From Halorubrum kocurii JCM 14978 (GTDB taxonomy: Archaea; Halobacteriota; Halobacteria; Halobacteriales; Haloferacaceae): a stretch of 64,000 nt of DNA. Below are positions 13,451-44,300 of this stretch, in pieces. Position 1 is the first letter of the stretch, and every line of letters starts with the position of its first letter. Made by a program: the position numbers and the translations under genes. The stretch is taken from positions 1-64,000 of the forward strand of contig NZ_AOJH01000062.1 of NCBI RefSeq assembly GCF_000337355.1, in the 5' to 3' direction. The notes below the pieces were generated by a model that was given only the letters and a program-made list of their open reading frames with translations, did no database searches and was not told the origin of the DNA.

Positions 13451-13473
13451 ACCAGCGCGGTACGTTCATTTGA

Positions 13474-13821: not shown

Positions 13822-13854
13822 GGGTCCCGCGCTGCACGCTCCGACCGTTCGCGA

Positions 13855-13966: not shown

Positions 13967-14033
13967 AGCTGAGCGCCGGTCCGCCGCTCCTCCCCCTCGA
14001 TCCGCGAACGGGCGGAACCGCCCGGCCGGCGTC

Positions 14034-16331: not shown

Positions 16332-16332
16332 T

Positions 16333-16599
16333 ATGGCAGTCCACCCCTGCCACCGCGCGACCGATGTCGCGCTCCGGCTGGCGGTCCCCCGCGACGCCGC
16401 GGGCGACCTCCACGCCGGGGTCCGCGCCAAGCTCGCCGGCCGTGACGGCGTCGACGTCGAGACCGTCGACGTCGTCTCTCTCCGGCCGCGCCTCAACGAC
16501 CTCACGGTCGAGGTCGACGCGTCGCTCCGGCTCGCGCCGGACGCCGCGGTCGACGACCTCACCGAGATCGTCGGGGTCCACAAGGCGCGTCCCCGGTAG
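16333..16599 (+). CDS. Small uncharacterised protein
   Basis: An 88-residue open frame starts MAVHPCHRATDVALRL two bases after the tRNA-like hairpin. It has haloarchaeal codon use and alternating strand/helix character (RLAVP..., LTVEVDASLRL), suggesting a small alpha/beta domain, but I do not recognise the family. The hairpin would fall in its 5' leader and could affect translation. Coding status is likely but not certain. Confidence 0.5.
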   Translation: MAVHPCHRATDVALRLAVPRDAAGDLHAGVRAKLAGRDGVDVETVDVVSLRPRLNDLTVEVDASLRLAPDAAVDDLTEIVGVHKARPR

Positions 16600-16705
16600 C
16601 GGACGCCGCCGGCCACACCACGGTCGACGCGGTCCCCGACTGACGCATCGACTCCGACCGCGGCGCGAGGCTTCGCGCCATCCACCCGACCCCAACCACA
16701 CGACG

Positions 16706-16996
16706 ATGAAACGAGACTCCCCCTCCAGACGCACGAGACACCCCGACCTCTACGCCGGTCCGGCCCCGTCCGACCGCGCGCCCTCGTGGCGCGCGACGGC
16801 GGTGTTCGCCGCGCTGCCGGTCCTGACGCTCGCGGTCGCCGCGTTCCCGACCGCGGTCGCGTTCGCTGCGGCCTCCATCGCCGGCGCGGTCGCCGGTGCG
16901 GCCCTCCACCGCCGCTACCCGGACGCGTTCGACCGCGCGTTCGAGCGCGCGCTCCCCGCGCCCGGCGACGAACCCACCGGCGCCGCCGACGGCTGA
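16706..16996 (+). CDS. Small membrane protein of unknown function
   Basis: The 96-residue product starts MKRDSPSRRTRH, has a basic N-terminus and a hydrophobic region from about residue 28 to 68 long enough for two membrane segments, then a short acidic tail. The arrangement predicts a two-helix membrane protein. No family is recognised. Confidence 0.6.
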   Translation: MKRDSPSRRTRHPDLYAGPAPSDRAPSWRATAVFAALPVLTLAVAAFPTAVAFAAASIAGAVAGAALHRRYPDAFDRAFERALPAPGDEPTGAADG

Positions 16997-17140
16997 ATCG
17001 CTTCGTTCCATCGGTCTCCCCGCTGACGTTTGGCCGCCCCTCCGCCTCCCCGCTGCCGTTCGGCCCTCCCCCCGTTTCGATCCCGGCGGTGGTCGCGGTC
17101 GGCCTCATCGCTTATACGTCGGAGTCCCCGACGAGTCGAT

Positions 17141-17869
17141 ATGACCGATCGCGAGTCCGGTTCCGACGCCGGAGCGCCCGGCGCCCGCGAGGCCGCCGCC
17201 GAGGGCCCCAACGACGGGCCCGCCGCCGACTCTTCCGGCGACGGAGACGACAGTCCGACCGTGCCAGCCGCGCTCCGCGCCGGTGCCGCCCTGTTCAACG
17301 AGGGACACGTTCTCGCGGCCCACGACCCGTGGGAGGCGGCCTGGCTTCCCCTCGCGGCGGGCGACGACGAGCGCCTGCTCCACGGCCTGATCGCGGCTGC
17401 GGCGGCGACCCACCACGCCGGTGGCCGCAACTGGTCCGGCGCGGTCGGCTGCGCGAGCAACGCCGAGGAGTACCTCGCCGGCGTTCCGCCGACGCTGCGC
17501 GGTGTCGATGTCGGGCCCGTTCGCGACTGGTGCCGCCGGCTCGCGTCCGACCCGGAGACGGTCGAGCGCTCGGCCCCGCCGACGCTCCGGATCGAGGGCG
17601 CGGCGCCGCGGTTCGGCGACCTCGACCTGTCGGCGACGCTGCTCGCGGCGCCCGCGCTCGCCGACGCGATCGCGCCCGGCGACGAGGAGACCTTCGAGAC
17701 CGCGGCGTCGCTCGCGCGGGGGGAGCGCGGCACCGGCCGGACGCGGTTCGCGGAGCTGCTGTTCGCGTTCCTCCGCAGCCCCGACGCCCGCCCGCAGGTG
17801 GCGGCGCGGCTCGCGGACCACGTGGAACTGGCGGAGCGGAAGCGGCGTGACGTCGACGACCTTTTTTAA
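17141..17869 (+). CDS. DUF309 family protein
   Basis: The 242-residue protein has a disordered acidic N-terminus (about 1-45) followed by the helical DUF309 domain, marked by LFNEGHVLAAHDPWEAAW and the later GLIAAAAATHHAGGRN block. DUF309 proteins are small helical proteins of unknown biochemical role. The ATG at 17141 is favoured over upstream codons because GCTTATACG lies about 27 bp before it, consistent with a leaderless transcript. It is convergent with azf. Confidence 0.85.
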   Translation: MTDRESGSDAGAPGAREAAAEGPNDGPAADSSGDGDDSPTVPAALRAGAALFNEGHVLAAHDPWEAAWLPLAAGDDERLLHGLIAAAAATHHAGGRNWSGAVGCASNAEEYLAGVPPTLRGVDVGPVRDWCRRLASDPETVERSAPPTLRIEGAAPRFGDLDLSATLLAAPALADAIAPGDEETFETAASLARGERGTGRTRFAELLFAFLRSPDARPQVAARLADHVELAERKRRDVDDLF

Positions 17870-17884
17870 GAACGTCTCGGGCGG

Positions 17885-18784
17885 TCAGGCGCCGTCGGTC
17901 GGCGTGTCGGGGTCAGTCGGAAAGTTGGGATCGGCCGGCCCGTCGTCGAGACCGGCTTCGCCGTCGTCGGCCGGTCCGTCGCCTCCGCCTGCGCCGCTGC
18001 CCTCGGTCTTCGGCTCCCCCTCGAACGTGTAGTCGGCGGAGTTGTCGGCGGGGTCGTACCCGAGGGCTTCGCGGGCGCGCTCGATCGAGTAATAGCGTCT
18101 GTCGTTGTTCGAGATGCCGTACACGATCTCGTAGCCGTAGTCGGCCTGCAGACACCGGTCGAACAGGTGCGCGCAGTCGCGGTGCGAGAGCCACATCGCC
18201 TGCCCGCGCTCGTACTCCCGCGGCGGGTGGTCCTTCGTGAGGTTCCCGATGCGGACACAGACGACGCTCATGCCGAACTCGTCGTGGTAGAAGCGACCGA
18301 GCGCCTCGCCGGTCGCCTTCGAGACGCCGTAGAGATTTCCGGGGCGGGGGAGTTCAGTGCCGTCGAGCCGGTAGTCGTCGTCGGTACGGTACAGGTCCGG
18401 GGTGCGCTCTTCGGTCTCGTAGCCGCCGACGGCGTGGTTCGAGGAGGCGAACGCGAACCGCTCGACGCCGGCGTCGGCGGCCGCCCGCATGACGACCTGC
18501 GTCCCGTCGATGTTGTTCCGGATCACGGAGTCCCACGGCGCCGTCTTCCGCGGGTCGCCCGCGAGGTGGATCACCGAGCCGACGCCGGCCATCGCCTCTC
18601 GGACGGCGCTCGCGTCGGTGATGTCGGCGACGTACCGGTCGGCGTCGGTGACTCCGGTGGGCACCTTCGCCGCCGGGAGCGGCTCCCTGTCGAGGAGTCG
18701 CCACTCGTAGTCGTCGCCGATGCCGCGGAGGATGGCCTGCCCCACCCGTCCGCCGGCGCCCGTCAGCAGGACCGGCTCGTCCAT
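17885..18784 (-). CDS. azf: NAD-dependent glucose-6-phosphate dehydrogenase (Azf type)
   Basis: The 299-residue protein is an extended short-chain dehydrogenase. It has the NAD-binding GAGGRVG motif at residues 10-16, an SSNHAVGGYE block and the catalytic YGVSK. Its sequence closely resembles Haloferax Azf, the NAD-dependent glucose-6-phosphate dehydrogenase that starts the archaeal oxidative pentose phosphate route and is unrelated to bacterial Zwf. An extra acidic, Gly/Asp/Pro-rich tail of about 40 residues is probably disordered. Confidence 0.88.
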   Translation of the reverse strand: MDEPVLLTGAGGRVGQAILRGIGDDYEWRLLDREPLPAAKVPTGVTDADRYVADITDASAVREAMAGVGSVIHLAGDPRKTAPWDSVIRNNIDGTQVVMRAAADAGVERFAFASSNHAVGGYETEERTPDLYRTDDDYRLDGTELPRPGNLYGVSKATGEALGRFYHDEFGMSVVCVRIGNLTKDHPPREYERGQAMWLSHRDCAHLFDRCLQADYGYEIVYGISNNDRRYYSIERAREALGYDPADNSADYTFEGEPKTEGSGAGGGDGPADDGEAGLDDGPADPNFPTDPDTPTDGA

Positions 18785-22163: not shown

Positions 22164-22718
22164 CTACCCGATCCGGTTGCGACGCGTCACCGTTCGGTGT
22201 GCCAGCCCGGAGACACCGAAGAGCACCGCGAACAGGACCGCGTAGGCGTATCCGGAGACCGACGCGAACGGGACCGTTCCGATCCACGCCGCACCGGCGA
22301 GCAGCCCGCAGACGACCGCGAGACCGACGTAGTACTCCCCCCAGAGGATCTCGTTTTCGGAGACCACTTCGAGGTACACCTCCAGCTGGCGGCTCTGTTC
22401 GGTCAGCGAGACGATCCCGCGGTCCGGCTCGTAGTCGATGAACCCGCTCTCGGCCAGCTTCGGCAGGTGTGACTGGTGCAGCGCGGTGTACACCCGCTTG
22501 CGCTGTTTGTACGTCACCTCGTTGATCTCCAGGTCGTTCTCCCACGCCGCCAGCTGCTCGGCGATGTCCCTGACGCGCGCGCCGTCGCCGTGCTGTTTCA
22601 GGTAGGTGATCACGTTCCGCCGCCGTTGGTTGCTGAGCGCCGTGAACACCTCATCGCGCGAGGGACTGTCGACGTCGCTGCCCGTCACTTTTGTCTCCCC
22701 CGTCAGTTGTGGTGTCAT
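22164..22718 (-). CDS. Membrane-anchored winged-helix protein
   Basis: The 184-residue product has an N-terminal winged helix-turn-helix (about 22-110; DEVFTALSNQRRRNVITYL, then VYTALHQSHLPKLAESGFI), the haloarchaeal DUF7344-type fold. Two hydrophobic segments follow (about 127-170) and a short basic tail. It may be a membrane-tethered transcription regulator; the target is unknown. An AT-rich segment at 22762-22785 probably contains its promoter. The gene at 24184 has the same domain layout. Confidence 0.8.
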   Translation of the reverse strand: MTPQLTGETKVTGSDVDSPSRDEVFTALSNQRRRNVITYLKQHGDGARVRDIAEQLAAWENDLEINEVTYKQRKRVYTALHQSHLPKLAESGFIDYEPDRGIVSLTEQSRQLEVYLEVVSENEILWGEYYVGLAVVCGLLAGAAWIGTVPFASVSGYAYAVLFAVLFGVSGLAHRTVTRRNRIG

Positions 22719-23049: not shown

Positions 23050-23925
23050 ATGACGGCATCACACGACACCAGTCTCGGTCGCCTTCGGCGCCCGGAGTAC
23101 ACTGGCGAGAACCGCTGTCTCCCCTGCACGGTCGTCAACGTGGCGCTCGCCGCTGTCGGAGCGGTCGGCGTCGGCGCGCTGGTCGCGGTCGAACTCGGCG
23201 CGGCCCTCTTCGTCGTCGCGCTCGCGGCGATCTGGCTGCGCGGCTACCTCGTGCCCGGGACGCCCGAGCTCACGAAGCGCTACCTCCCCGAGCGCGCGCT
23301 GCGCCTGTTCGGGAAGGGCCGCGACCCCGGGCCTCCGGCGGCGATCGACGCGGAGTCGTACCTCCTGTCGGCCGGGGTGCTCGTCGAGACGCCGGACGGG
23401 AGCGACCTCGCGTTCGCGCCGTGGTTCGAGTCGGCGTGGCGGACGCACCTCGCCGCGCTCCGCGACGCGGCCGTCGAGGCCGCCGCTCCCGTCGCGGCGT
23501 CGCCCGACGGCACGCGCCCCGCCGCTCCCGCCGACGTCGACGCCCTCGCGGAGCTCACCGGGATCGACGAGGACGGGCTCTCGCTGCGCTGGCGCGGCGA
23601 CGCCGGGTTCGCGCACGCCGGCGACGACCGCATCGGCCACTGGGAGTCCCGGTCCGCGTTCCTCGCGGACGTCGCCGCCGACAGCGCGCTGACGACGCAC
23701 CTCGACGACTGGGCGTCGCTCCCGCTCGCCTCGCGGAGCGGCGTGCTCGGCGCGCTCAGACTGTTCGTCGAGCGCTGCCCGACCTGCGAGGGCGCGGTGC
23801 AGTTGGAAGAGCGGGTCGTCGAGTCCTGCTGTTCGAGCTACGAGGTCGTCGCCGGCCGGTGTACCGCGTGTAACGCGCGGCTGTTCGAGATCGACCTCCC
23901 GCCGTCGCTCGCGAACGCGCGGTAG
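23050..23925 (+). CDS. Membrane protein with C-terminal zinc-ribbon-like domain
   Basis: The 291-residue protein has a short N-terminal stretch with CLPC, two hydrophobic segments (about 28-65), then a soluble domain. Near the C-terminus CPTC and CTAC flank VVESCCSSYEVV (about 238-275), a plausible zinc-binding site. I know it only as a conserved haloarchaeal type without assigned function. TATA-like GCATACATAGG upstream supports the start. Confidence 0.72.
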   Translation: MTASHDTSLGRLRRPEYTGENRCLPCTVVNVALAAVGAVGVGALVAVELGAALFVVALAAIWLRGYLVPGTPELTKRYLPERALRLFGKGRDPGPPAAIDAESYLLSAGVLVETPDGSDLAFAPWFESAWRTHLAALRDAAVEAAAPVAASPDGTRPAAPADVDALAELTGIDEDGLSLRWRGDAGFAHAGDDRIGHWESRSAFLADVAADSALTTHLDDWASLPLASRSGVLGALRLFVERCPTCEGAVQLEERVVESCCSSYEVVAGRCTACNARLFEIDLPPSLANAR

Positions 23926-24183: not shown

Positions 24184-24747
24184 TCAGCCGCGTCGTCGCA
24201 GACGGGAGGCGCCGCTTCGTCCGGCTCGGAGCTGCCGGAGCACGGAGAAGCGGTTGACCCACAGCTGGTAGGCGCTCGCGACGGCGAACAGCGCGAGCGC
24301 GAGACTCGTCAGCAGGATCGGGTCGACCGCGGAGACGAGGGGGACGTTGAGCAGCGCCGCGAGCAGGACCGTCAGGGAGACGACGCCGAGCGCGCGGTAC
24401 AGCTCCGACCAGGTGACGCCGGCGCTCGCGACCACCTCGGTGTACAGCGCCACGTCCCGCGCGTGACGGGACACCTCGATCGCCTGGCTCTCCCGGTCGT
24501 ACTCGATCACGCCGAGCGCCTCCAGCTTCGGGAGGTGCGTCTGCACGAGCGACGTGTACACGCTCTCGCGACAGCGCTTCGGCGGCGGGCTCTCGCCGGT
24601 CTCGTGGCCCGCGACGAGCGCCGACAGCTCGTGGACGGTCACGACGCCGCCGACGCTCCGGAGCTGTTCGAGGGCGTGCCGCCGGCGCTCGTTCGCGAGA
24701 ATGGCGTACACCTGTTCGGCCGGAAGGAGGTCTGTTCGGAGCTTCAT
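24184..24747 (-). CDS. Membrane-anchored winged-helix protein
   Basis: The 187-residue product begins MKLRTDLLPAEQVYAIL and contains a DUF7344-type winged helix (about 8-110) with VYTSLVQTHLPKLEALGVI as recognition region. Two hydrophobic segments follow (about 125-165) and a basic tail. It is a paralogue of the protein at 22164 with the same plan. The ATG at 24747 fits the family start; an upstream extension of 71 codons is unlike any relative. A role in controlling the adjacent divergent surface-protein cluster is possible, only from position. Confidence 0.8.
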   Translation of the reverse strand: MKLRTDLLPAEQVYAILANERRRHALEQLRSVGGVVTVHELSALVAGHETGESPPPKRCRESVYTSLVQTHLPKLEALGVIEYDRESQAIEVSRHARDVALYTEVVASAGVTWSELYRALGVVSLTVLLAALLNVPLVSAVDPILLTSLALALFAVASAYQLWVNRFSVLRQLRAGRSGASRLRRRG

Positions 24748-25200: not shown

Positions 25201-26727
25201 ATGAACCCGGACACAAACGACACAATCGGACTCTCGCGGCGCAAGCTGCTCGCCGGCCTCGGGGCCGTCGGCGTGGCCTCCGCGGGCGCGGGACTCGGCA
25301 CCACGGCGTACTTCAACGACACCGAGTCGTTCGAGGGCAACACGCTCACCGCGGGCGAGCTGGACCTCAAGCTCGACTACCGCGCAACGTACGCGGGCGG
25401 TACCGGGCGCATCGACGAGATCAACGGCTGGTACAGCGAGAGCGGCCCGGGGGAGCCCTTCGAGGTCGTCGAAGAGGAGGACGGCGTCTACCTCATCGGC
25501 GAGGTTCCGAGCATCGACGAGGCGGACTCTTGGGAGGACGAGGTCCAGACGCGCGACTTCTGTGCCCCTGACGTGGGCCTGATCAACGGCGACCAGATCC
25601 CGGTTTTCGTCCTCGACGACGTGAAACCCGGCGACTGCGGTGAAGTGACGATCAGTCTCCACATCTGTGACAACCCCTCGTGGGTGTGGATGAACGGAGA
25701 GCTGACCGAGAACGCACAGAACGGGTACTCGGAGCCCGAAATCGAGGCGCTTGAGGGCTTGGAACTCTCCACCGACGACCCCGAGGGCGACGGCCAGCTG
25801 GCCGATGCCATCGACGTGACGGTGTGGTACGACGAGAACTGCAACAACGTCTACGAGGCCGGGGGCGAGAGCGGCGGACCGTTATGCGTCCAGATCGTCC
25901 TCGACGCGTCCGGATCGATGAGTACCGGCAATCGGAACAGCCAGGCCATCAACGGCGCGAAGACGCTCGCGGAGAGCATCCTACAGGACGGCCCCGCCGG
26001 CAGCCGAGTCGGTGTGACGTTCTTCAGCGCGTCCGGCTACGACCAGAGCGCGCAGGTCATCCAGACGCTGACCGACGACCTACAGGACGTACTCGACGCG
26101 ATCGACACGCTCCCCGCGAACGGGAGCGACACCGCCATCGGCGAGGGGATCGAGGAGGCACAGGGCGACCTCGAGAACTGCGACGACGACGAGTCGCCGA
26201 CGATGGTCGTGCTAACTGATGGCGAGAACACTGTGCGTCCTCCGGACCCCGGAGACGCCGCGGACGATGCAAAAGACGCTGGAACCGAAATCTACGCGCT
26301 CGGCGTCGGTAACGCACAGGTCTCGACGCTCAACGACATCTCCAGCGATCCCGACGAGGAGTACGTCTTCTTCGCGAGCGACGACGGTGCGCTCGAACAG
26401 GCCTTCGGTCTGATCAGCGAGACGCTTCTCGGAGAGTCGATCATCTTCGAGGGCTCGCTCGCGGACGCGATGGCGGAGCTAGAAGCGGGAATTGCGCTCG
26501 ACGGCAACCGTGCCACCGAGTCCCGGGAGCCGTTCGACGGCGGCCTCACCCAGTGTATCGGCTTCGAGTGGTGCCTGCCGGCCGAGGTCGGCAACGAGGT
26601 TCAGACCGACTCCGTGGTCTTCGACCTCGGCTTCTACGCCGAGCAGTTCCGGCACAACGACGACCCGCAGGTGACGTTCAACGGGACGGAGGCGAACAGC
26701 ACCAGCACCGGAAACGTGTCCCAGTAG
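25201..26727 (+). CDS. SipW-type exported protein with nested von Willebrand A domain
   Basis: The 508-residue protein starts with a Tat-like leader (LSRRKLLAGLGAVGVASAG, residues 11-29) followed by TTAYFNDTES and LTAGELDL, the signature of SipW-processed TasA/camelysin-like proteins. The fold's first half runs to about residue 215 (VKPGDCGEVTISLHICDNP). A von Willebrand A domain is inserted at about 228-410 with MIDAS residues Asp235-Ser237-Ser239, Thr311 and Asp340. The fold resumes at 415-486 (FEWCLPAEVGNEVQTDS). The tail has two N-glycosylation sequons. I infer a metal-binding adhesive surface fibre subunit. Confidence 0.85.
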   Translation: MNPDTNDTIGLSRRKLLAGLGAVGVASAGAGLGTTAYFNDTESFEGNTLTAGELDLKLDYRATYAGGTGRIDEINGWYSESGPGEPFEVVEEEDGVYLIGEVPSIDEADSWEDEVQTRDFCAPDVGLINGDQIPVFVLDDVKPGDCGEVTISLHICDNPSWVWMNGELTENAQNGYSEPEIEALEGLELSTDDPEGDGQLADAIDVTVWYDENCNNVYEAGGESGGPLCVQIVLDASGSMSTGNRNSQAINGAKTLAESILQDGPAGSRVGVTFFSASGYDQSAQVIQTLTDDLQDVLDAIDTLPANGSDTAIGEGIEEAQGDLENCDDDESPTMVVLTDGENTVRPPDPGDAADDAKDAGTEIYALGVGNAQVSTLNDISSDPDEEYVFFASDDGALEQAFGLISETLLGESIIFEGSLADAMAELEAGIALDGNRATESREPFDGGLTQCIGFEWCLPAEVGNEVQTDSVVFDLGFYAEQFRHNDDPQVTFNGTEANSTSTGNVSQ

Positions 26728-26810
26728 ACACGCGACTCCGAGCGGGACACCCGCTCCCCCCGGGCGACACTCGCCCGGTTCCCGGTTCGGCGCCTTCGGG
26801 CGGCCGACGC

Positions 26811-26851
26811 GGCGGTTCGCGACCGCCGCCGGGAGTTCCCCCAATGGGGAT
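26811..26851 (+). promoter_or_regulatory. Paired leader hairpins before the second SipW-type gene
   Basis: GGCGGTTCGCGACCGCC (26811-26827) forms one hairpin and TTCCCCCAATGGGGA (26835-26849) a second, ending about 10 bases before the ATG. The same two-hairpin design, with GGGAGTTCCC between, precedes the gene at 28335. It may affect mRNA processing, termination of the upstream gene or translation. Confidence 0.55.
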
Positions 26852-26859
26852 GATACACA

Positions 26860-28215
26860 ATGAACGACGACACAATCGGACTATCGCGGCGCAAGATGCT
26901 GGTCGGACTCGGCGCGGTCGGCGTGGCCTCCGCGGGCGCGGGCCTCGGAACGACGGCGTACTTCAACGACACCGAGTCGTTCGACGGTAACACGCTGACT
27001 GCAGGCTCGCTCGACCTGTTCGTCCACGTCGACTACTCCGAGGACCAGGGCAGCTACGCGAGCTACTCGACCCCTCCGGGAAGCTTCATCAACGGCAACG
27101 TCGTGGGGCAGATCGACGATAATGCAATCGTCACTACCGAGGATGAATCCCTCAGCATCCAGGTCTCCGACCTGAAGCCCGGCGACTCCGGCGAGGGCGA
27201 GTTCTGCTTCTCGATCGTCAACAACCCCGCGTACATGTGGATGTGCGGCGAGGTGACCGCGAACGACGAGAACGGGCAGAACGAGCCAGAGATGGACGTC
27301 GACTCGACCGTCGGCGAGGGTATGGGCGAACTCGCCGACGCGATGCAGGTGACCGTCTCGTACTGCACCGCCGCCGGCGAGACCGGCGAGGAGATCATCT
27401 CCGGCTCACTCGCGGACGTGATGAGCGCGCTCGACAACGGCGTACCGCTGTCGGGCGACGGAGACGCTGACGCGCCTCTCGCGGACCGCCCCGTGTTCGA
27501 GGGCGTGGATGCGCCCTTCGACGACGACAACGAGCCGGTCATCGCCGAGCAGTGCGTCTGCTTCGAGTGGGAGGTTCCCTTCGAGGTCGGCAACGAGATC
27601 CAGAGCGACTCCGTTGAGTTCGACTTCGAGTTCTACGCGGTGCAGTCGCGTCACAACGACGGGACGCACAACCCCTGCATCACCTCCCGCGAGGTCGAGG
27701 GCTTCGGCAAGTCGGACTACGACGACGCCGACGTGCTGTGGGCGTCCAAGGCGCGCAACGGCGGCTCCAACACCTTCGAGCTGATCGTGGGCGACGACAA
27801 CGCGAACGCCGACACCGACGACTACGACTTCGGCGGCAGCAGCTTCGACGGCGAGCTGACGGTCGCGTACGACGCCGACACCGGCGAAGCGAGCCTCGAA
27901 ATCGCGAACGGCACCACCGCCGACGTCAGCTACGCCGTCAGCGACGCCGCCGGCGACGTGATCTCCATCGTCGCGCGCGGCGACGACGCGAGCCACCTCG
28001 CGAGCGTCTCGAACGTCCGGGTCAACGGGAGCGCCCCGACCGGGCCCGACGCGGTCGAGGCCGACGGCGCAGAGACGGTCTCCCTGCTGATCGAGGACGT
28101 CGACGCCAGCGCCGACTGGGAACTGACCGCGGACGTGGCGTTCGAGGGCTTGGACAACGACCCGAGCGCCTCGGACGAGAACCCCGCGGTGTACGTCGAG
28201 GTGATCGACGCGTAG
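26860..28215 (+). CDS. SipW-type exported protein without vWA domain
   Basis: The 451-residue protein shares the near-identical leader and AYFNDTESFDGNTLTAG start with its neighbours. Its TasA-like fold is uninterrupted: LKPGDSGEGEFCFSIVNNP then FEWEVPFEVGNEIQSDS and a YAVQSRHND end (about residue 265). A second, C-terminal domain (about 270-451) begins VEGFGKSDYDDADVLWASKA and looks all-beta and acidic; I do not recognise it. A related segment is found in the gene at 31057. Comparison with its neighbours shows where the vWA domain was inserted in them. Confidence 0.83.
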   Translation: MNDDTIGLSRRKMLVGLGAVGVASAGAGLGTTAYFNDTESFDGNTLTAGSLDLFVHVDYSEDQGSYASYSTPPGSFINGNVVGQIDDNAIVTTEDESLSIQVSDLKPGDSGEGEFCFSIVNNPAYMWMCGEVTANDENGQNEPEMDVDSTVGEGMGELADAMQVTVSYCTAAGETGEEIISGSLADVMSALDNGVPLSGDGDADAPLADRPVFEGVDAPFDDDNEPVIAEQCVCFEWEVPFEVGNEIQSDSVEFDFEFYAVQSRHNDGTHNPCITSREVEGFGKSDYDDADVLWASKARNGGSNTFELIVGDDNANADTDDYDFGGSSFDGELTVAYDADTGEASLEIANGTTADVSYAVSDAAGDVISIVARGDDASHLASVSNVRVNGSAPTGPDAVEADGAETVSLLIEDVDASADWELTADVAFEGLDNDPSASDENPAVYVEVIDA

Positions 28216-28287
28216 GCGAACGCGCCGCGGACGGGCGGGGGAGCGCTCTCCCATCACCCACACCGGACCCGCGCGGGCGGCCGGGAC

Positions 28288-28326
28288 GACGGTTCGACTC
28301 CGTCGGTGGGAGTTCCCTTCGGGGAA
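28288..28326 (+). promoter_or_regulatory. Paired leader hairpins before the third SipW-type gene
   Basis: GACGGTTCGACTCCGTC (28288-28304) and TTCCCTTCGGGGAA (28313-28326) form two hairpins separated by GGTGGGAG and end nine bases before the ATG at 28335. Layout and the GGGAGTTCCC core match those before 26860. Confidence 0.55.
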
Positions 28327-28334
28327 TTACACTC

Positions 28335-30065
28335 ATGACAGACAAAGACAACATCGACACGGTCGGACTCTCGCGCCGCACGCTCCTGGCGGGCCTCGGC
28401 GCGGTCGGCGTGGCCTCCGCGGGCGCGGGACTCGGCACCACGGCGTACTTCAACGACACCGAGTCGTTCGAGGAGAACACCCTCACCGCCGGTCAGCTCG
28501 ACCTGCTCGTCGACTGGCAACAGACCTACGACTTCGGCGAGGGGCGCAAGTTCATCAGCGCACACCCGGACCACGACGAAGACGGGGAGCAGTCGATCAT
28601 CGACCCGGAAACCCAAGAGGTCATCAAGTACAGCGACTTCCCGGACGAGGACGACGAGGACAGCAACGGCGCAAACCTGCCGGTGCTGACCTGCGACAAC
28701 ATCCCGCCCCTCTCGGAGGCGTACTTCAACGTCGACCCCGTCACGGGCGAGGAGATGGAGAGCCTCGTCCAAATCACCGACGTGAAGCCCGGCGACTCCG
28801 GCGAGATCACCTTCTCGCTGCACCTCTGTGACAACCCCGGCTACATCTGGATGCAGGCGGACAACATCTCCGACGACGGCGGCGCCGCCACCGAGCCCGA
28901 GCTGCTCGTCGACCCGGGCAACCTCGGTGACCTCGGCGACGCCATCCAGGCGACGCTCTGGTACGACGAGGACTGCGACAACGTGTACGACGGCGCGGAG
29001 CCGGTCGACATCATGCTGACGCTGGACTTCTCCGGCTCCATGCTGTACGACCAGTACGGCGGCGTCGTCAGCGACGACGACATCACCGTCGGCGGCAACA
29101 CCTACGACGAGACGACGAAGATCGACCTCGTTGAGCTCGGTACCCGCCAGTTCGTCGACTACCTGCAGTCGCAGGGGTCGGACGTGCGGGTCGGAGTCGC
29201 GTACTTCGACGGCGAGGGGAGCGGCGAGTCGCTCCCCCGGACGGGCGTCTACCAGCCGCTCACCAGTGACCTCTCGGCGGTCGACACGTCACTGACGAAC
29301 CTCCGCCAGAAGCTCGCGAACGTCGTCACCGGGTCCGGATTCACCGCTAGCAACAAGCCAACTGCGCCCTTCGACGGCGACGGCGATCCCGACCCGTTCT
29401 CGAACGCGAACGGCATCGCGACGGGCACGTACATCGGCGAGGGCGTCGACGACGCGCAGGCCGAGCTCGACTCGAACGGCCGCACCGACGTCGAGAAGCG
29501 CAACATCGTGCTCTCGGACGGTGAGTCGTTCAACGGCGACGGGACCACGGCGTTCTCCTCGCCGACCGACGCGGCCGACGACGCCCGCGCGGCGTCGCCC
29601 GGTCCCGAGACCGACGTCTTCACCATCAACGTGAACGGCAGCGCCGGTACGCTCCAAGCGATGGCCGGTCCGGCCGGCGGACCGGGCGGCGACCCGGCGT
29701 TCTTCAACGACGTCGACGACCCGCTCAACATCCCGACCGTCTTCGGCAACCTCGCGGCCCAGACCGTGCAGGAGAAGGTCATCATGGAGGACACGCTCGC
29801 GGCCGTCCTCGCCGAGCTCGCCGACGGGGACGGGATCCCGCTCGACGGCAACCGTGCGACGCTGTACGACGAGCTCAACGACCCGGCCGACGACCCGGAC
29901 CGCGACGCGTTCCGCGGCGACGGCGTGATGCACTGCGTCGCACTCGAGTGGGAGCTGCCCCTCGAGGTGGGCAACGAGGTCCAGGGCGACACGCTCGCCT
30001 TCGATCTCGGGTTCTACACCGAACAGGCGCGCCACAACGACGGCGCCGGGCCGTCGGCGGCCTGA
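28335..30065 (+). CDS. SipW-type exported protein with nested von Willebrand A domain
   Basis: The 576-residue protein has the same leader (GLSRRTLLAGLGAVGVASAG) and LTAGQLDLLVD start. The first half of the TasA-like fold ends at about residue 215 (VKPGDSGEITFSLHLCDNP). The vWA domain spans about 226-475 and has MIDAS-type DFSGS (Asp231, Ser233, Ser235) and a later LSDGES. The fold resumes with MEDTLAAVLAELADG and LEWELPLEVGNEVQGDT, ending YTEQARHND. It is a paralogue of the gene at 25201 with a longer N-terminal loop. Role as surface fibre or adhesin is inferred. Confidence 0.85.
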   Translation: MTDKDNIDTVGLSRRTLLAGLGAVGVASAGAGLGTTAYFNDTESFEENTLTAGQLDLLVDWQQTYDFGEGRKFISAHPDHDEDGEQSIIDPETQEVIKYSDFPDEDDEDSNGANLPVLTCDNIPPLSEAYFNVDPVTGEEMESLVQITDVKPGDSGEITFSLHLCDNPGYIWMQADNISDDGGAATEPELLVDPGNLGDLGDAIQATLWYDEDCDNVYDGAEPVDIMLTLDFSGSMLYDQYGGVVSDDDITVGGNTYDETTKIDLVELGTRQFVDYLQSQGSDVRVGVAYFDGEGSGESLPRTGVYQPLTSDLSAVDTSLTNLRQKLANVVTGSGFTASNKPTAPFDGDGDPDPFSNANGIATGTYIGEGVDDAQAELDSNGRTDVEKRNIVLSDGESFNGDGTTAFSSPTDAADDARAASPGPETDVFTINVNGSAGTLQAMAGPAGGPGGDPAFFNDVDDPLNIPTVFGNLAAQTVQEKVIMEDTLAAVLAELADGDGIPLDGNRATLYDELNDPADDPDRDAFRGDGVMHCVALEWELPLEVGNEVQGDTLAFDLGFYTEQARHNDGAGPSAA

Positions 30066-30265
30066 CCTCTCGGATCGCACCGGCCCGATACGCGGTCGAT
30101 CCGCGTCTGAGCGGGTGCGAAACCGGGGAACCACGCGGGGGTATGGCGTCCGTACCCACGGGGTACGGTCGCCGGTCCGTCCGGGTAGGACGCGCATACA
30201 TACCAGCGCTGTCGACGTAGGGAAGCCATCGACGAGACGGCCGTTCGGAGCCGCAACGACACACA

Positions 30266-31060
30266 ATGACACAAAAGGAATCGAAACTCACGCGGCGGGA
30301 GGCGCTCGCGGGCGTCGGAGCCGTCGGCTTCGCGGCCCTCGGGGCCGCCTCCGGACGGCCGACGGGAACGGACGGCTGGAACGAGTACCCGGAGTACACG
30401 TACGCGCAGTCCGACACTCCGTGGGACCTGCTGGTCGGCTGGCGGCGCACGGAGAACGGGACGGTCGTCGGGTCGAGCCCGACCGACGGCTTCGACGACG
30501 TCGAAGCGGCCGGGATCCGGCTCGTCGACGTGGACAACGCGCTCCCGGGCGACACCGGGACCGCGAGCGTCGGGCTCCGGCTCGACGACCCCGCGGGCAC
30601 CGCCCCGGACGGCGTCCGGGTGTGGCTGCGGATCGATCCCCGCCTCGACACCGCCGACGCCGCGAGCGCCGCGCTCGCCGAACGCATCTCGATCGAGGTC
30701 CGGTACGACACGGGGATACTCGGCATCGGCGGCTGCGGCGGTGCCGAGGGGAACTTCGCGGGCTACGGCGACCTGATCGCCGTCGGCACCCTCGCGGAGC
30801 TGGACGGCTCGGCGCTCGCGGACGGGATCGAGCTGAGCCCCGGCCTCTTCGGCGGCGACTGTCTCACGACCGAGGAGCGCCGCTGCCTGATCTTCGCGTG
30901 GGAGTTCAGCTCGGACGGCGGCAACGCCGGACAGGGCGGCGCCGTCGACTTCGACGTGGAGTTCGCCGCGGACGACTGCCGCAACGAGGGCAACCCGTTC
31001 GACGCGTCCGACGCCGGGGCCGAGACGGGGTCGTCCGACAGCAGCGAGGAGCCGCTATGA
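30266..31060 (+). CDS. Exported SipW-cluster protein, divergent member
   Basis: The 264-residue protein has a Tat-like leader (TRREALAGVGAVGFAALGAASG) but lacks the usual FNDTES segment. The mature part keeps the cluster's logic: DNALPGDTGTASVGLRLDDP in the middle and LIFAWEFSSDGGNAGQGGAVDF near the C-terminus, so it is probably the same beta-sandwich. A Ser/Glu-rich tail follows. Its stop overlaps the next start (ATGA), beginning a tightly packed run of five genes. The 200-bp gap upstream suggests a separate promoter, perhaps near GCGCATACATAC (30192-30203). Confidence 0.78.
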   Translation: MTQKESKLTRREALAGVGAVGFAALGAASGRPTGTDGWNEYPEYTYAQSDTPWDLLVGWRRTENGTVVGSSPTDGFDDVEAAGIRLVDVDNALPGDTGTASVGLRLDDPAGTAPDGVRVWLRIDPRLDTADAASAALAERISIEVRYDTGILGIGGCGGAEGNFAGYGDLIAVGTLAELDGSALADGIELSPGLFGGDCLTTEERRCLIFAWEFSSDGGNAGQGGAVDFDVEFAADDCRNEGNPFDASDAGAETGSSDSSEEPL

Positions 31061-32472
31061 CCCCCGGAGACGACGGCGCGGGGCGCCAGAGCGGACTGAG
31101 CCGGCGCCGCCTCCTCGCCGGTATCGGCGGCGTCGGCGCCGTCGGGATGGCGAGCGGCCTCGGTACGGGCGCGTACCTCGCCGACCGGGAGACGTTTGCG
31201 GACAACGTCTTCGGCGCCGGCTCGGTCGAGCTGATAGTGAACGAGGAGGTCACCGACGGGACCTTCGCGGTCGACGTGTCGGATATCGACCGCGGCCACG
31301 GCGGCACGGAGACGTTCGATATCGAGGTTCGGACCAACCCCGCCCGCGTCTGGCTCGCGACCGACTGTCCGGCGGCCGGCGACGCCCTCGCCGACGCCAT
31401 CGAGGTCGACGTCGCCGTCGACCGGGAGTCGGTGACGGACGGGTACCGGCCCCTCGCCGAGGTCGAACGCGAGCTCGTCGCCGGCGAGCGGATCGACGCG
31501 GGCTGTCTCGGTCCCGACGACCGCGTGACCGTCGAGGTGAACTGGCAGCTGCCCGGCGACGCGCCCGACGAGGTCGCCGGCGAGGCGACTGACCTGACGT
31601 TCCGGCTCTACGCCGAGCAGTGCCGCCACGTCGCCGAGGCGGACGCCGCGGCGTCGAACCCCTTCGCCGACCGCGTCTGCGAGGGCTCGGACGACGACTG
31701 CCCCGCGTGCGTCGAGTTCGGGAAGGCGGACGACATCGAGGCGGCGCTCGCGGTGGGCGACGTCCTTCCGCTGACCGGACTCCCCGCGGGCGTGGGCGCA
31801 CACGACATCGAGATCACCGCGGTCGAGACGAAGGCGGACGACGAGGCGATCGGTGCCGCGTTCGTCCTCCGCGCCGCCGACGGGGCTCCCGGACCGGCCG
31901 TGTGTGCGGTCGAGATCAAGGGCGGGCGGGGGACCGAACGCTACGAGATCGACCCGGCCGCTCCGGCGACGGGCGAGGTGCTGTTCGCGCCTCGAAAGCC
32001 CGACAGCGACGAGCGACACGGGATCAGCCACATCGTCGTCTTCGTCTGCTCCGGCGATGACGGCGACAGAGGCGACGATTCGAGCGACTGCGTCGTCTGC
32101 GACGACTCGGCGGTCTCGCTCGCGTCGCTCGACGTCCGCTACCGCGGCGACGACGCGTCGGTCACCGCGGTCTCGACCGGGGGGAACACCGGCGGGACCC
32201 TCTTCGAGGGCACGCTCACCCCCGGCGGGGCGTTCACGCTGTTCGGCAGCGACGTGGTTCGGGGCGGGAACGCCGGCAACGGAAACGCCGGCCCCGACAA
32301 GCTCGGCCCGGAGGTCGACATCACGGTCGACGGCGGGGAGCCGATATCGCTTCACGTGAGCTGCTCGGAGCCGCTCGCGGTCGGGACGCGGTTCGGTGAC
32401 GGCGACCTGTTCGAGGTCACCGGCGGCACGACGACGGACGGCGAGTCGCTCTGCGACTCGGAGGCTATCTGA
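31057..32472 (+). CDS. SipW-type exported protein with C-terminal domain
   Basis: The 471-residue protein has a Tat-like leader (LSRRRLLAGIGGVGAVGMASG) and AYLADRETFADNVFGAGSVEL, a variant of the SipW signature. The TasA-like fold covers about residues 45-200 (IDRGHGGTETFDIEVRTNP; VNWQLPGDAPDEVAGEA). The C-terminal half begins VEFGKADDIEAALAVGD and resembles the extra domain of the gene at 26860. It contains CVVCD and several Gly-rich loops. Starts and stops overlap its neighbours on both sides, so it is translated with the signal peptidase gene. Confidence 0.82.
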   Translation: MTPGDDGAGRQSGLSRRRLLAGIGGVGAVGMASGLGTGAYLADRETFADNVFGAGSVELIVNEEVTDGTFAVDVSDIDRGHGGTETFDIEVRTNPARVWLATDCPAAGDALADAIEVDVAVDRESVTDGYRPLAEVERELVAGERIDAGCLGPDDRVTVEVNWQLPGDAPDEVAGEATDLTFRLYAEQCRHVAEADAAASNPFADRVCEGSDDDCPACVEFGKADDIEAALAVGDVLPLTGLPAGVGAHDIEITAVETKADDEAIGAAFVLRAADGAPGPAVCAVEIKGGRGTERYEIDPAAPATGEVLFAPRKPDSDERHGISHIVVFVCSGDDGDRGDDSSDCVVCDDSAVSLASLDVRYRGDDASVTAVSTGGNTGGTLFEGTLTPGGAFTLFGSDVVRGGNAGNGNAGPDKLGPEVDITVDGGEPISLHVSCSEPLAVGTRFGDGDLFEVTGGTTTDGESLCDSEAI

Positions 32473-33488
32473 TGAACAATCCACTCACATCACCACGACT
32501 CAGGAAGGCGGCGAACGTACTCGGGATCGTCCTGTTGATCGCGCTCGTCGCGCCGTTCGCGGTGTACGCGGCCCCGGAGCTCGTCGGTGCGGACGAGAGC
32601 TTCGTCGTGCTCACGCCGAGTATGACGCCCGCCATCGCCCCGGGTGACGTGGTGGTCGTCGCCGAGCGGGACCCGACGGCGATCGCCGAAGGCGACGTGA
32701 TCACGTTCGCCCTCGGCGCGAGCGACGTGCCGGTGACGCACCGCGTGATCGGCGTCGTCGACGAGGGTGGCGCCCTCGCGTTCGAGACGCAGGGCGACGC
32801 CAACGAGGGGCCGGACCCCGGGTTCGTCCCGGCGGCCAACCTCGTCGGCGCGGTCACGTTGACGATCCCGTACATCGGGTACGTGATCCAGTTCGCGGGC
32901 ACGCGAGCCGGCTTCGTCACGCTGGTGCTGCTCCCGTTCGGCCTGCTCGCGGTCACGGAGGTCTGGTCGATCGTCCGTGACCGGGACGAACGGGCGGCGG
33001 CGACCGCCGCGGCCGAGGGGTCGCCGAGCGATTCGGACGGCGACGCGACCGCCGCCGCGACCGACCCCGCCGCGACCGACCCCGCCGCGACGTCCGACAC
33101 ACCGGCTGCGACCGGATCCGGGGGCGTGTCCGTCGACACGGTCGGCGGGGCGGCCGCGGTACTCGCGGCGTTCGCGCCGTACGCCGTCTACGTCGCGTTC
33201 GAGCTTCGCACCGCCGTCGCGATAGCGGTCGCGGTGGCGGCGTCGACGCTCCTGCTCGGCGCGCTCGCGGCGTGGGTCCCGGCCAGCGGCGTCCTCGATC
33301 GCGGCGGATCGGTCGCGGACTCGGCGAGCGGTGAGCCCGCGTCGGGGCCTGACTCGGACGCGCCCGCACCGCTCACTCCCGTCGACCGGGACGCGGCGAC
33401 CGACGGGTTGGGAGCGCTGCCGGCGACCGCGTCCCCGGCGACCGCGCCGCCGCCGGCGCAGCCGGACAGCGCCGGGGAGGGGGACTGA
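32472..33488 (+). CDS. Signal peptidase I, archaeal/SipW type
   Basis: The 338-residue membrane protein has catalytic Ser50 in LTPSMTPAI and His90 in VTHRVIGV in place of the bacterial lysine, plus a conserved Asp in QGDANEGPD (Asp109 or Asp115); this is the ER/archaeal/SipW catalytic type. A membrane segment precedes the serine, another follows at about 128-155, and two more lie at about 210-260 after an Ala/Thr/Asp-rich loop. Its overlap with the exported-protein genes strongly suggests it is the dedicated processing enzyme of this cluster. Confidence 0.93.
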   Translation: MNNPLTSPRLRKAANVLGIVLLIALVAPFAVYAAPELVGADESFVVLTPSMTPAIAPGDVVVVAERDPTAIAEGDVITFALGASDVPVTHRVIGVVDEGGALAFETQGDANEGPDPGFVPAANLVGAVTLTIPYIGYVIQFAGTRAGFVTLVLLPFGLLAVTEVWSIVRDRDERAAATAAAEGSPSDSDGDATAAATDPAATDPAATSDTPAATGSGGVSVDTVGGAAAVLAAFAPYAVYVAFELRTAVAIAVAVAASTLLLGALAAWVPASGVLDRGGSVADSASGEPASGPDSDAPAPLTPVDRDAATDGLGALPATASPATAPPPAQPDSAGEGD

Positions 33489-34186
33489 TGGCCGCGAACC
33501 GCGGGCTCGTCGGCGCCGTCGCCCTCGCCGTGTTGGTGTGGGGGGTCGCGTTCGGTGGGGGGCTCACCGCCGCCGTCCTCACGTCGTCCGTCGACGTGAC
33601 GACGACGTTCGGGACCACCGACAATCTCACCGAGATCGACGCCTCTTCCGGCGGCGGTTTCGCCGTCGCGACCGCTCCCGTCGGGAACGAGACGGAGGGG
33701 GGAGAGGAGGTCGAGAACGGCACCGCTCCGCCGGAGAACGGTACTGCTCCCTCGACGAACGGCACCGCTCCGCCAACGAACGGTACTGCTCCGTCACAGA
33801 ACGCTTCGGTCCCGACGGACGACCCGGCCGCGAACGAGTCGGCGCCGTCGGAAGACGAGAGCGCGCCCTCCGAGAACAGCTCGGCGCCGCCGGAAGACGA
33901 GACGGTGCCGGAAGATGAGGGCGCGCCGCCCGAGAACAGCTCGGCGCCGTCCGAGAACAGCTCGGCGCCGTCCGAGAACAGCTCGGCGCCGTCCGAGAAC
34001 AGCTCGGTGTCGCCGGAAGACGAGACGACCACGGACACTGACGATCCGGCGCCTTCGGCGTCGGACTCCACGGGCAACGCCACCACCGAGACCCCCCCGG
34101 TGCTCGGGGAGGACGCCCCCGAATCGGTGAGTAGCGCCGTTTTCCGGTCGGTCAGTCTTCCGTCGCTGTTCGCGAGCGAGGCGTGA
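33488..34186 (+). CDS. Mucin-like exported protein with many N-glycosylation sequons
   Basis: The 232-residue protein has one N-terminal hydrophobic segment (about 8-30) that serves as signal or anchor. A Pro/Ser/Thr/Glu/Asn-rich extracellular stretch carries 14 N-x-S/T sequons, mostly in short repeats such as NGTAPP and SENSSAP. Such regions are usually heavily glycosylated stalks in archaeal surface proteins. It overlaps the peptidase gene (ATGA) and the next small gene. No folded domain is evident. Confidence 0.75.
   Translation: MAANRGLVGAVALAVLVWGVAFGGGLTAAVLTSSVDVTTTFGTTDNLTEIDASSGGGFAVATAPVGNETEGGEEVENGTAPPENGTAPSTNGTAPPTNGTAPSQNASVPTDDPAANESAPSEDESAPSENSSAPPEDETVPEDEGAPPENSSAPSENSSAPSENSSAPSENSSVSPEDETTTDTDDPAPSASDSTGNATTETPPVLGEDAPESVSSAVFRSVSLPSLFASEA
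33930..34011 (+). repeat. 21-bp tandem repeat encoding SENSSAP
   Basis: Four near-perfect copies of a 21-bp unit (CCGAGAACAGCTCGGCGCCGT) encode tandem seven-residue repeats, each with one N-glycosylation sequon. Copy number could vary between strains by slippage or recombination. Confidence 0.85.
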
Positions 34187-34347
34187 CGGTGAACTCCCCG
34201 ATCCGGCCGCGAGAGCCCGCGGAGCGTCGCGGTTCGGGCCCCCGCGTCCGTCGGTCTCCGGTCGGGGCGAAACTGACGGTCCTGCTCGCGTTGGCCGTGT
34301 TGGTCCTGCTCGCCCTGATATTCGGACTCGTCCGCGGACTTGCGTAG
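34183..34347 (+). CDS. 54-residue single-span membrane protein (GTG start)
   Basis: A GTG at 34183 overlaps the stop of the upstream gene and opens a frame of 54 codons ending in TAG at 34345-34347. The product has a basic, Arg/Pro-rich N-terminal half and one strongly hydrophobic helix (LTVLLALAVLVLLALIFGLV) near the C-terminus. The stop/start overlap continues the pattern of the operon, which supports its being real. It could be a small accessory subunit of the peptidase or secretion step; function is unknown. Confidence 0.6.
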   Translation: MTVNSPIRPREPAERRGSGPRVRRSPVGAKLTVLLALAVLVLLALIFGLVRGLA

Positions 34348-41506: not shown

Positions 41507-44300
41507 GACTCTGTTGAAATCCTCAAACGGTGATATGTTCTTGGAGCTGTGCTGAATACAGAGCGCGTATCGGTCACGCACCCTTTTCGACACCGGTAAT
41601 TTCGAAGCGGGCCCCGCCCCCTTTGCTCTTAGTCACGATAGTTTCCCAGCCGTGCGCGTCGGCGATTTGTTCGACGATCCGCAGGCCGAACCCGGTCCCG
41701 TCCTCATTTGTCGAGTATCCTGCCTCGAATACGTCCTCACGGTCAGACTCGGGGATTCCGGGGCCGGTATCTGCCACGTAGAAGCCGTCGTCTATCGCAC
41801 CGACAGACACTGTCACGTCGTCGCTGCCGTGTTCTATGGCGTTTTGGTAGAGATTCTCGAACAGTTGCTGGATCCGACTCCGGTCGGCTTCGATGACCTG
41901 TGGTGCGTCGGCGTCGAGTGTTGCTTGTCGCGTCTTTACAGTTTGCCAACTGTTCTTAGCTACGTTCGCAAGTCCAATCTGTTCGATCTCATCAACTCGG
42001 CTGCCTTCTCGTGCCAGTGTCAACAAGTCCTCAATGAGCGCGTCCATCCGGTCAAGTGCCTGTGCTACGCCGTCGATATGGTCACTCGTACACTCGTCCC
42101 GAATCAGTTCCAACCGTCCTTCGGCCACGCGGAGTGGGTTCCGCAAATCGTGGCTGACGATGCTGGCGAACTCTTCCAAACGCTCGTTCTGTCGTTGCAA
42201 TTTTTCTTCGTACTCTTTCTGCTCAGTAATGTTGGTGGCGATGCCACAGGTGGCGTATACGGAGCCATTGTCAAACAGTGGGACAATCCGGGTGAGAAAG
42301 TACTGACGACCGTCGTCGGTCTGAATGACCTCTTCGACCTCGACATGTTCTCTCGTCTCATAGACTCTTTGGTCGTTCTGCTGAAATTTCCCAGCCACTT
42401 CCGCCGAGTGTAAATCTACTGCCCGTTTTCCAGCGATGTCGGTATCGTCAGCGATGTCGAACAGGTCCCGATGATATTGATTCATGTACACGTACTCGTC
42501 ATCGGTGTTTCGAATCCACATCGCGGACTCAACGCTATCGATAACACCCTGAAGTTGGTTGGTGGTCTGGCGGAGTTCGGCTTCACGTTCTCGTTGCTCG
42601 GTAACATCCCGGAGTGTGCCGACCGACCCGTTGAACTCCTCGCCATCGTACGGAAGGACGCCCATGTGATCTTCACAGACGATTGGGTCGCCCTCGCGGG
42701 GGTGGATCGTCACTTCGAATGTTACCCCTTCCGGGCCATCGCTCGATAGTAACCGTCCCAATTCCTGCTCGGCCCGTTCTACGGCCTCTTCGTCTTTGAT
42801 CAGCGATGGTGTGTTCCCGAGAATCGTCTCCCGGTCGTAGCCGACTAATTCCACCAACTCGTCGTTAACATAGGTGAACTGCCCCTCTTCGTCAAGCACG
42901 TACACTGCATCACTGAGTGCCTCAATAATCGTCTCGTACTCTTCTAATTCAGTCTTACGCCGCTCTCGGTCGGTAACATCCTGAAACTTCGAAAAAATCG
43001 TCTGGACGTCCCCATCTGCGGCGGTGACGACACGGTTGTGCCACTCGCAGGTGATTACCTCGCCATCCTTTCGGACGTTCCTGTTGATCACGTGGGTTCC
43101 GCCGTCCGCGTCAAGGAGTTTTTCTACAGTATCACCCACCTGTCCGCTGTCGTCACCGGCGACAATTCCCTCCCATGACTCGCCACGTAACTCTGCCTCA
43201 CTGTAGCCGAGAATCTCTTCGGCCCGTCCGTTCATTCGTTCAAACTGGAATTCAGGATCCCACTGGACTGCCCCAAGCGGTGATTCTTCAAAGAATAGCG
43301 ATAATTGCTTCTGTCGCTGCCGAGCGGTCCGTTCGTGCTCCTCACGCTCAGTAATATCATGACCGGCCCCCCGGAGCTTTGTTACTTTCTCCCCATTCTC
43401 GACAACCGGAGTAATTGTCATGTCGAGGAGACGTTCCTCGCCGTCACCCGGCTGGAGTCGCCATGTGTCGTGTAGTTCTTCGCGCGTCTCCAATACCTTG
43501 TCGAGTGTATGCTGGATGTCTTTGCGATCGTCTGGATGGAACAGTTTCAGCGCCTCCTCCAGAGGCATTTCGTGTTGGTTATGACGGCCAATGATTCGCC
43601 GAGTGCCTGCCGTCAGCACGACAGTATTGCTCTCTGTGTCCAGTTCGAAACCACCGGTATCACCGTTGAATTCCGTCAATCGCATCAATTGTTCTTGTCT
43701 GTCGGCCCGCTTGGCCTCGCGGCGGGCGCGAACGGCGTTGTGGATCCGGTTGACCAAGAGTTCGTACTGTTCGGTGCCCCTGCCCTTCTGGAGATAGTCG
43801 GTGACACCGGCAGCAATGGCGTCACTGGCGACTGTCTCGCTGCCCTTGCCGGTGAAGAGAATAAACGGGAGGTCGGGATACTCCTCTCGGACAGCCTGCA
43901 GGAATTCGATGCCATCCATGCCGGGCATGTTGTAATCCGAGACGACACAGTCAGGCGGGCGGTCATTAATATTCTCCAACCCCTCGTCGGCACTGGTCGC
44001 TGTCTGGACAACGAAGCGGTCGTCCTCGCGTTCGAGAAACGTCCCTGTCAGGTCCGTGATGGAGGGGTCGTCATCGACGTGGAGAATCTGAATCTCTTGG
44101 TGAGAACTGAACGGCATGGTATATAAAGTGTTAGTATCATCAAAAAACTACTGTAACAGAATCAGGACTGAAATTGGCCTTGTCGATACCGAGAAATTAA
44201 TGATATTTAACTATTTGAAATAAATAATGCTCTGATGCTGACTTTATCCTCTGGATCTCGCATGCCGATCCTATCATTTCGTAAGGATTTCAACAGAGTC
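41507..44300 (-). mobile_element. Transposase-less IS6-type element carrying a histidine kinase gene
   Basis: GACTCTGTTGAAATCCT at 41507-41523 is perfectly inverted at 44284-44300. These 17-bp ends resemble the IS6-family terminal repeat (GGNNCTGTTGCAAA type). The 8-bp AAATAACC is present directly outside both ends (41499-41506 and 44301-44308), the duplication length typical of IS6 elements. No transposase frame lies inside; the only gene is the kinase at 41574. The interior is visibly richer in A/T than its surroundings. Joining the two flanks restores a unit of the hairpin-rich repeat, independent proof of insertion. Confidence 0.88.
41574..44117 (-). CDS. Hybrid sensor histidine kinase (REC-PAS-PAS-PAS-PAS-HisKA-HATPase)
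   Basis: The 847-residue protein starts with a receiver domain (1-125; acidic Asp15-17, phospho-acceptor Asp61 in SDYNMPGMDG, Lys91). About four PAS segments follow (about 140-275, 280-400, 405-525, 525-640). The dimerisation helix carries His656 in SHDLRNP, and the ATPase domain has N-box Asn759 (QNAIEHG), DTGPGIPES and GTGFGLRIV. No membrane segment is present, so it senses a cytosolic signal. Receiver-first kinases of this type are common in haloarchaea. It is the sole passenger of the IS6-type element; no partner gene is near. Confidence 0.93.
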   Translation of the reverse strand: MPFSSHQEIQILHVDDDPSITDLTGTFLEREDDRFVVQTATSADEGLENINDRPPDCVVSDYNMPGMDGIEFLQAVREEYPDLPFILFTGKGSETVASDAIAAGVTDYLQKGRGTEQYELLVNRIHNAVRARREAKRADRQEQLMRLTEFNGDTGGFELDTESNTVVLTAGTRRIIGRHNQHEMPLEEALKLFHPDDRKDIQHTLDKVLETREELHDTWRLQPGDGEERLLDMTITPVVENGEKVTKLRGAGHDITEREEHERTARQRQKQLSLFFEESPLGAVQWDPEFQFERMNGRAEEILGYSEAELRGESWEGIVAGDDSGQVGDTVEKLLDADGGTHVINRNVRKDGEVITCEWHNRVVTAADGDVQTIFSKFQDVTDRERRKTELEEYETIIEALSDAVYVLDEEGQFTYVNDELVELVGYDRETILGNTPSLIKDEEAVERAEQELGRLLSSDGPEGVTFEVTIHPREGDPIVCEDHMGVLPYDGEEFNGSVGTLRDVTEQREREAELRQTTNQLQGVIDSVESAMWIRNTDDEYVYMNQYHRDLFDIADDTDIAGKRAVDLHSAEVAGKFQQNDQRVYETREHVEVEEVIQTDDGRQYFLTRIVPLFDNGSVYATCGIATNITEQKEYEEKLQRQNERLEEFASIVSHDLRNPLRVAEGRLELIRDECTSDHIDGVAQALDRMDALIEDLLTLAREGSRVDEIEQIGLANVAKNSWQTVKTRQATLDADAPQVIEADRSRIQQLFENLYQNAIEHGSDDVTVSVGAIDDGFYVADTGPGIPESDREDVFEAGYSTNEDGTGFGLRIVEQIADAHGWETIVTKSKGGGARFEITGVEKGA

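Follow-up and report, generated by a model that had tools for sequence, protein, structure and literature searches.

A candidate TasA-type donor-strand surface fibre with inserted vWA modules encoded by a gene cluster of Halorubrum kocurii

Described fibre systems and the Halorubrum cluster

TasA, encoded in the tapA-sipW-tasA operon of Bacillus subtilis, has phenylalanine at P2' (the second residue after the cleavage point) and is cut by SipW, a dedicated endoplasmic reticulum (ER)-type peptidase (PMC10269814). The donor strand of TasA comprises residues 28-38 (PMC9674648), and its P62 is part of a proline box in the conserved protomer interface (PMC10151520). Archaeal homologues of TasA were already reported (PMC10151520), as were the bundling pili of Pyrobaculum, which are related to TasA and use donor strands (PMC9674648), and archaeal donor-strand fibres are known (PMC9715654, PMC11952670). 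Here, we describe a cluster of eight closely spaced plus-strand genes, A to H, at 25201-34347 in a 64,000-nucleotide stretch of DNA (the window) from the haloarchaeon Halorubrum kocurii JCM 14978, together with a divergent gene, R, at 24184-24747. We consider it fairly probable that these genes code for a donor-strand surface fibre of the TasA type, the subunits of which would be exported by the twin-arginine translocation (Tat) route, processed in the SipW manner and equipped with adhesive vWA modules.

The cluster resembles the operon of B. subtilis in its TasA-type core, a SipW-type signal with F at P2' and a KPGD box (PMC9674648, PMC10151520), and also in the presence of an ER-type peptidase gene in the operon and in the N-terminal position of the candidate donor strand. 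In contrast to B. subtilis, it has twin-arginine leaders, several substrates, a vWA domain inside the core, a DUF7344 regulator, and a core-only subunit without a SipW site. The sipW-calY1-calY2 genes of Bacillus cereus likewise combine a single SipW peptidase with more than one protein of the camelysin type (PMC10151520), but neither Tat leaders nor an inserted vWA domain or a core-only subunit of the D type is reported there. Among archaea, AbpA of Pyrobaculum calidifontis and ABPx of Pyrodictium abyssi form donor-strand fibres with a related jelly-roll (PMC11952670). An earlier note, made from the sequence of the window, had linked the cluster to archaeal bundling pili, and this link was recovered as a weak match (7ueg, Z 6.3; 9sj2, AbpX, E 0.3 in the sequence search). 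To our knowledge, AbpA and ABPx are pili of thermophiles without inserted vWA domains. The pilus-tip adhesins Mfa5, SpaC and PitA also carry a vWA domain on a pilus protein but belong to other pilus families, whereas here the domain lies inside a TasA-like core.

A SipW-type or TasA-like system of haloarchaea was not found in the open-access papers searched. Within that literature, four features appear to be new: leaders of the Tat type, a haloarchaeal cluster that has a dedicated peptidase, the sharply varying vWA domain inserted in A, and the core-only subunit. To the earlier note the assembly had appeared uncharacterised, which stands for this particular assembly within the same literature but not for the archaeal TasA homologues and relative cited above. 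Its outline of the locus, from the start of A at 25201 to the end of H at 34347, agreed with ours, as did its description of a multi-subunit set with vWA modules; five exported proteins with Tat-like leaders (A to E), an archaeal-type signal peptidase of the cluster's own (F), a sequon-rich protein (G), a tiny membrane protein (H) and overlaps among the last five genes (D to H) were likewise recovered. The note did not contain the travelling of R with the cluster, the missing SipW site of D, or the position of the vWA domain inside the core.

Export signals, peptidase and TasA-like core

A twin-arginine motif precedes the hydrophobic stretch at the start of each of A (25201-26727), B (26860-28215), C (28335-30065), D (30266-31060) and E (31057-32472). 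The model for SipW-dependent signals, TIGR04088 (cut-off 19 bits), was exceeded in this genome by A (32.6 bits), B (31.2 bits) and C (31.3 bits) only; E scored 15.1 bits, under the cut-off, and D gave no match. The site was also absent from the aligned homologues of D (26 rows), which keep the twin-arginine leader. Of the five subunits formerly proposed, A, B and C look like SipW substrates and E weakly so, but D, which has no site, does not. Across 33 related loci and the window, 92 SipW-type signals were located with a search pattern in which RR is not a requirement and which is one residue off for AYL-type sites; RR was found upstream in all 92. The consensus of the cleavage site was A|(Y/F/L)(F/L)(N/S)D, with P2' mostly F. 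The predicted mature N-terminus of A, YFNDTESFEGNTLTAGELDLKL (25309-25374), is a candidate donor strand, and its positions F2, D4, E6, F8, N11 and G16 were near-invariant among 84 relatives. The precursors would probably be exported by Tat, as judged from the RR motif and general knowledge of haloarchaeal secretion; the score for the Tat signal model TIGR01409 was below its cut-off.

Gene F (32472-33488) encodes a signal peptidase with a Ser-His pair and a C-terminal membrane extension. Judged by its profile match, F is an archaeal/ER-type, SipW-like signal peptidase (TIGR02228, 104.1 bits, cut-off 51.85), and the only other peptidase of the genome above the cut-off reached 56 bits with the archaeal signal peptidase model and 30 bits with the SipW model. 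In an alignment that includes the genome's other peptidase copies, S50, H90, Asp109 and Asp115 were invariant, and the serine and histidine were kept in 30 of 30 F matches. F was 31-39% identical to its homologues in other genera and 25-27% identical to the other peptidases of the same genome. Among the Halorubrum genomes tested, an F-type peptidase was present in all 11 that have TIGR04088 proteins; of the eight that have none, one carried it, as a broken remnant. This co-occurrence argues that F is dedicated to SipW-type substrates. One F homologue elsewhere (G103:C13:18850-19803) has two TGA codons within the matched stretch, with several SipW-type substrates nearby.

The TasA fold had been proposed together with structure prediction as a check, and an AlphaFold model of D was obtained from 26 sequences with a predicted local distance difference test (pLDDT) of 76 and a predicted template modelling score (pTM) of 0.72. 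TasA took the first three places among PDB chains with moderate Z scores: 8aur with Z 8.7 (root-mean-square deviation, rmsd, 3.3 over 149 residues), 5of1 with 8.1 and 5of2 with 7.8. For the archaeal donor-strand fibres, Z was 6.3 with 7ueg (AbpA; rmsd 4.2, 143 residues), a value within the range of unrelated rows, 6.1 with 9h8b and 5.5 with 7pnb. Profile comparison showed the core of D to be homologous to that of A, B and C (99.6%), and B exceeded the cut-off of the camelysin family Peptidase_M73 of Pfam (24.3 bits). What chiefly makes the fold match of D persuasive is its agreement with the type of signal, the camelysin match of B, the profile link between D and A, B and C, and the adjacent peptidase gene. 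The KPGD motif is invariant in the family and aligns with LKPGD of TasA in the PDB sequence search with the core profile; its proline corresponds to TasA P62, as counted from the alignment and the published numbering. A search of PDB sequences with the profile of D returned essentially leader-peptide matches only.

Mature A was modelled with AlphaFold from 84 sequences (pLDDT 84.5, pTM 0.79). In this monomer model, residues 1-18 formed no strand and were partly of low confidence; they correspond to the place of the TasA donor strand, and we counted this for the donor-strand reading. The earlier description of the folds as TasA- or camelysin-like is best carried by A, B and C through their signals and, in D, by the model and the profile link; it appears less direct for D and E than for A, B and C. 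B has a TasA-like core without a vWA domain and an extra C-terminal domain. E combines a weak SipW-like signal and a core, as aligned with A to D, with a C-terminal DUF7467 (PF24269, 27.5 bits, over the cut-off). Relatives of the D core were also seen in two genomes that belong to the same phylum as the window but to another order (G391:C1:1490833-1491354 and G430:C16:22567-23085), and the core may thus extend beyond haloarchaea.

The vWA modules and the reading of the cluster

In A, the vWA domain (25873-26439, mature residues 189-377; PF00092, 87.3 bits) is inserted between the two halves of the TasA-like core and carries the residues of the metal ion-dependent adhesion site (MIDAS), DASGS, T and D. 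Structural matches of A to vWA chains reached Z 21-25, with Mfa5, mussel PTMP1 and SpaC among the best (Z 22-25), which places the domain close to pilus-tip vWA domains, among others. The insert of C, found by alignment with A, is a diverged vWA-like one that keeps DFSGS and scored 16.9 bits with PF00092, below the cut-off. DxSxS occupied the same columns in 43 of 84 family members, and members of the B type were without the insert. Compared with the A protein of a related locus, L008, the flanks of window A were 85% and 89% identical and the vWA domain 48%; compared with L009, the values were 79% and 91% for the flanks and 79% for the domain. Over four loci, the vWA domain was 47-48% identical to those of L008 and L011 (flanking core 83-89%) and 79% to those of L009 and L015, and at least three types of the A insert occur within Halorubrum. 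DNA identity along A was more than 90% at the ends, fell to approximately 50-60% inside and rose again. Since the insert diverges sharply between relatives with an almost unchanged core on either side of it, it is likely, judging from these alignments, that the vWA insert of A has been exchanged as a cassette between relatives; fast divergence of the insert is a possible alternative. Tree tests for the exchange were borderline (approximately unbiased test, p-AU 0.05 for the vWA domain and 0.29 for the core).

If A, B, C and E are Tat substrates, as their twin-arginine leaders indicate, they would probably fold first and then leave by the Tat route. F would cut at A|(Y/F/L)(F/L), a site present in the sequences, and free a mature N-terminus such as YFNDTESFxxNTLTAG. 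By homology with TasA, the freed N-terminus may fit into the groove of a neighbouring subunit, next to its KPGD box, giving a mixed filament from which the vWA domains of A and C could project and bind ligands or neighbouring cells through the metal-dependent MIDAS. D has the core and is missing the SipW-type donor N-terminus, so it may accept a strand and be unable to pass one on; it could thus close the fibre as a cap or anchor one end in the membrane. Position and composition suggest accessory roles in the envelope for G and H and local regulation for R. By analogy, the likely role of the fibre is adhesion, aggregation or biofilm cohesion. The fuller proposal, a Tat-exported donor-strand fibre with a private SipW-like peptidase in which the vWA domain is a strain-exchanged cassette inside the subunit and the polymerising core stays fixed, is put forward tentatively, as a possibility we would not yet favour.

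Several results weigh against a TasA-type fibre. The Z of 8.7 for D is barely above the 7-8 often reached by models without clear relatives, and the Foldseek E for the D model against 8aur was 1.4e-3. In the fold search with A, vWA matches took up the list, and for this reason the core of A was judged through D and the profiles. In the PDB sequence search, the core profile placed sialoadhesin (E 0.0058) ahead of TasA (E 0.044), so that sequence alone is not specific; the sialoadhesin match itself was judged to be a short Ig-like motif. F scored 97.4 bits with the SipW equivalog NF046067, under the curated cut-off of 190. No TapA-like initiator was recognised in the cluster, a further difference from B. 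subtilis, and a filament assembled from several kinds of subunit would depart from the TasA pattern. Tat export, cleavage and polymerisation are all inferred.

In an alternative scheme, the substrates are separate surface-attached or secreted adhesins or matrix proteins with vWA and jelly-roll domains that share SipW-type processing and form no donor-strand polymer. The substrates are numerous (up to 14 SipW-type matches per genome) and varied in their C-terminal domains and inserts, and relatives show sharp differences in the A insert, as separate adhesins might. They would have no need, however, of the mature N-terminus and KPGD, which are inter-protomer elements in TasA and rank with the best-conserved positions in the family, and we regard this scheme as unlikely. 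Appreciably less probable is a function in cell-cell recognition or in mating or competition, with the core as a display scaffold and the vWA variation reflecting partner or phage specificity. The low identity of the A insert (48%, against 85-89% in the flanks) and the accessory, sometimes lost locus would agree with such factors, but B, D and E lack a vWA domain and are nonetheless conserved parts of the cluster, and the gene run showed no gene for a toxin, for immunity or for fusion.

Were the TasA-type fibre confirmed, it would offer a concrete, testable candidate for the cohesion of haloarchaeal biofilms and aggregates, and an example of donor-strand fibres built from Tat-exported subunits with a variable binding module inside the repeating unit. 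The set includes laboratory-growable genera, e.g., Halobacterium and Halorubrum.

Distribution and genomic setting

The same gene order was found in approximately 30 related loci, the closest of which to the window cluster are those of Halorubrum. The order R, several substrates, D, E and F, with some genes missing in some loci, occurs in at least eight genera: Halorubrum, Halobellus, Halobacterium, Haloglomus, Halospeciosus, Halolamina, Saliphagus and Halomicroarcula. The ratio of nonsynonymous to synonymous substitution rates (dN/dS) against three relatives was 0.23-0.70 for A to F, indicating constraint, and 0.81 for G in the single pair that could be tested, indicating weaker constraint. 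The recurrence of the order and the dN/dS values argue that the cluster is not a chance arrangement. TIGR04088 proteins were present in 137 of 292 sampled genomes of the class, representing 50 of 77 genera; with SipW-type substrates so distributed, TasA-type matrix fibres, if the proposal is correct, would extend to nearly half of the sampled haloarchaeal genomes. The Halobellus locus L020 appears to hold two clusters in tandem, at 1-3700 and 9000-18200, and a D and an F gene are present in both.

In Halorubrum, the cluster sits between mutS and a ZIP transporter gene, an interval that it shares with a paralogue resembling R and one other gene. In six Halorubrum genomes without the cluster (L059-L064), mutS lies near the ZIP gene: the two are approximately 70-100 bp apart in three, and the other three sites hold a broken piece of F (L064), a homologue of G (L059), or the upstream gene only. 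These relics and the closely spaced mutS and ZIP genes indicate that the locus is accessory and that loss has occurred in at least some cases. The R-like gene and a gene for a conserved protein with CxxC pairs lie between mutS and R in most Halorubrum loci (22164-22718 and 23050-23925 in the window), and the gene of the protein with CxxC pairs accompanies the cluster in other genera, too.

R, on the minus strand, is a candidate regulator with a DUF7344 N-terminus (PF24035, 89.8 bits) and hydrophobic C-terminal segments; in almost every related locus it precedes the first of the substrate genes and points away from it, and the conserved unit starts with R. At the other end, G (33488-34186) encodes a membrane-anchored protein with 14 N-x-S/T sequons in 232 residues, and its homologues occupy the same place in Halorubrum loci. 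H (34183-34347) encodes a small single-span membrane protein with a GTG start at 34183 or 34189, and H-like open reading frames were found at the same place in at least seven Halorubrum loci. The genes D to H overlap in series, by 4 nt (D/E), 1 nt (E/F), 1 nt (F/G) and, if H starts at GTG 34183, 4 nt (G/H). A scan for bacterial promoters and terminators was uninformative, as expected for an archaeon.

Elsewhere in the window, the G+C content was 0.55 at 42001-44000 and 0.58 at 62001-64000, compared with approximately 0.69 around them, and these segments are possibly foreign DNA. Two tRNA-Asp(gtc) genes lie 28 bp apart at 9697-9872.

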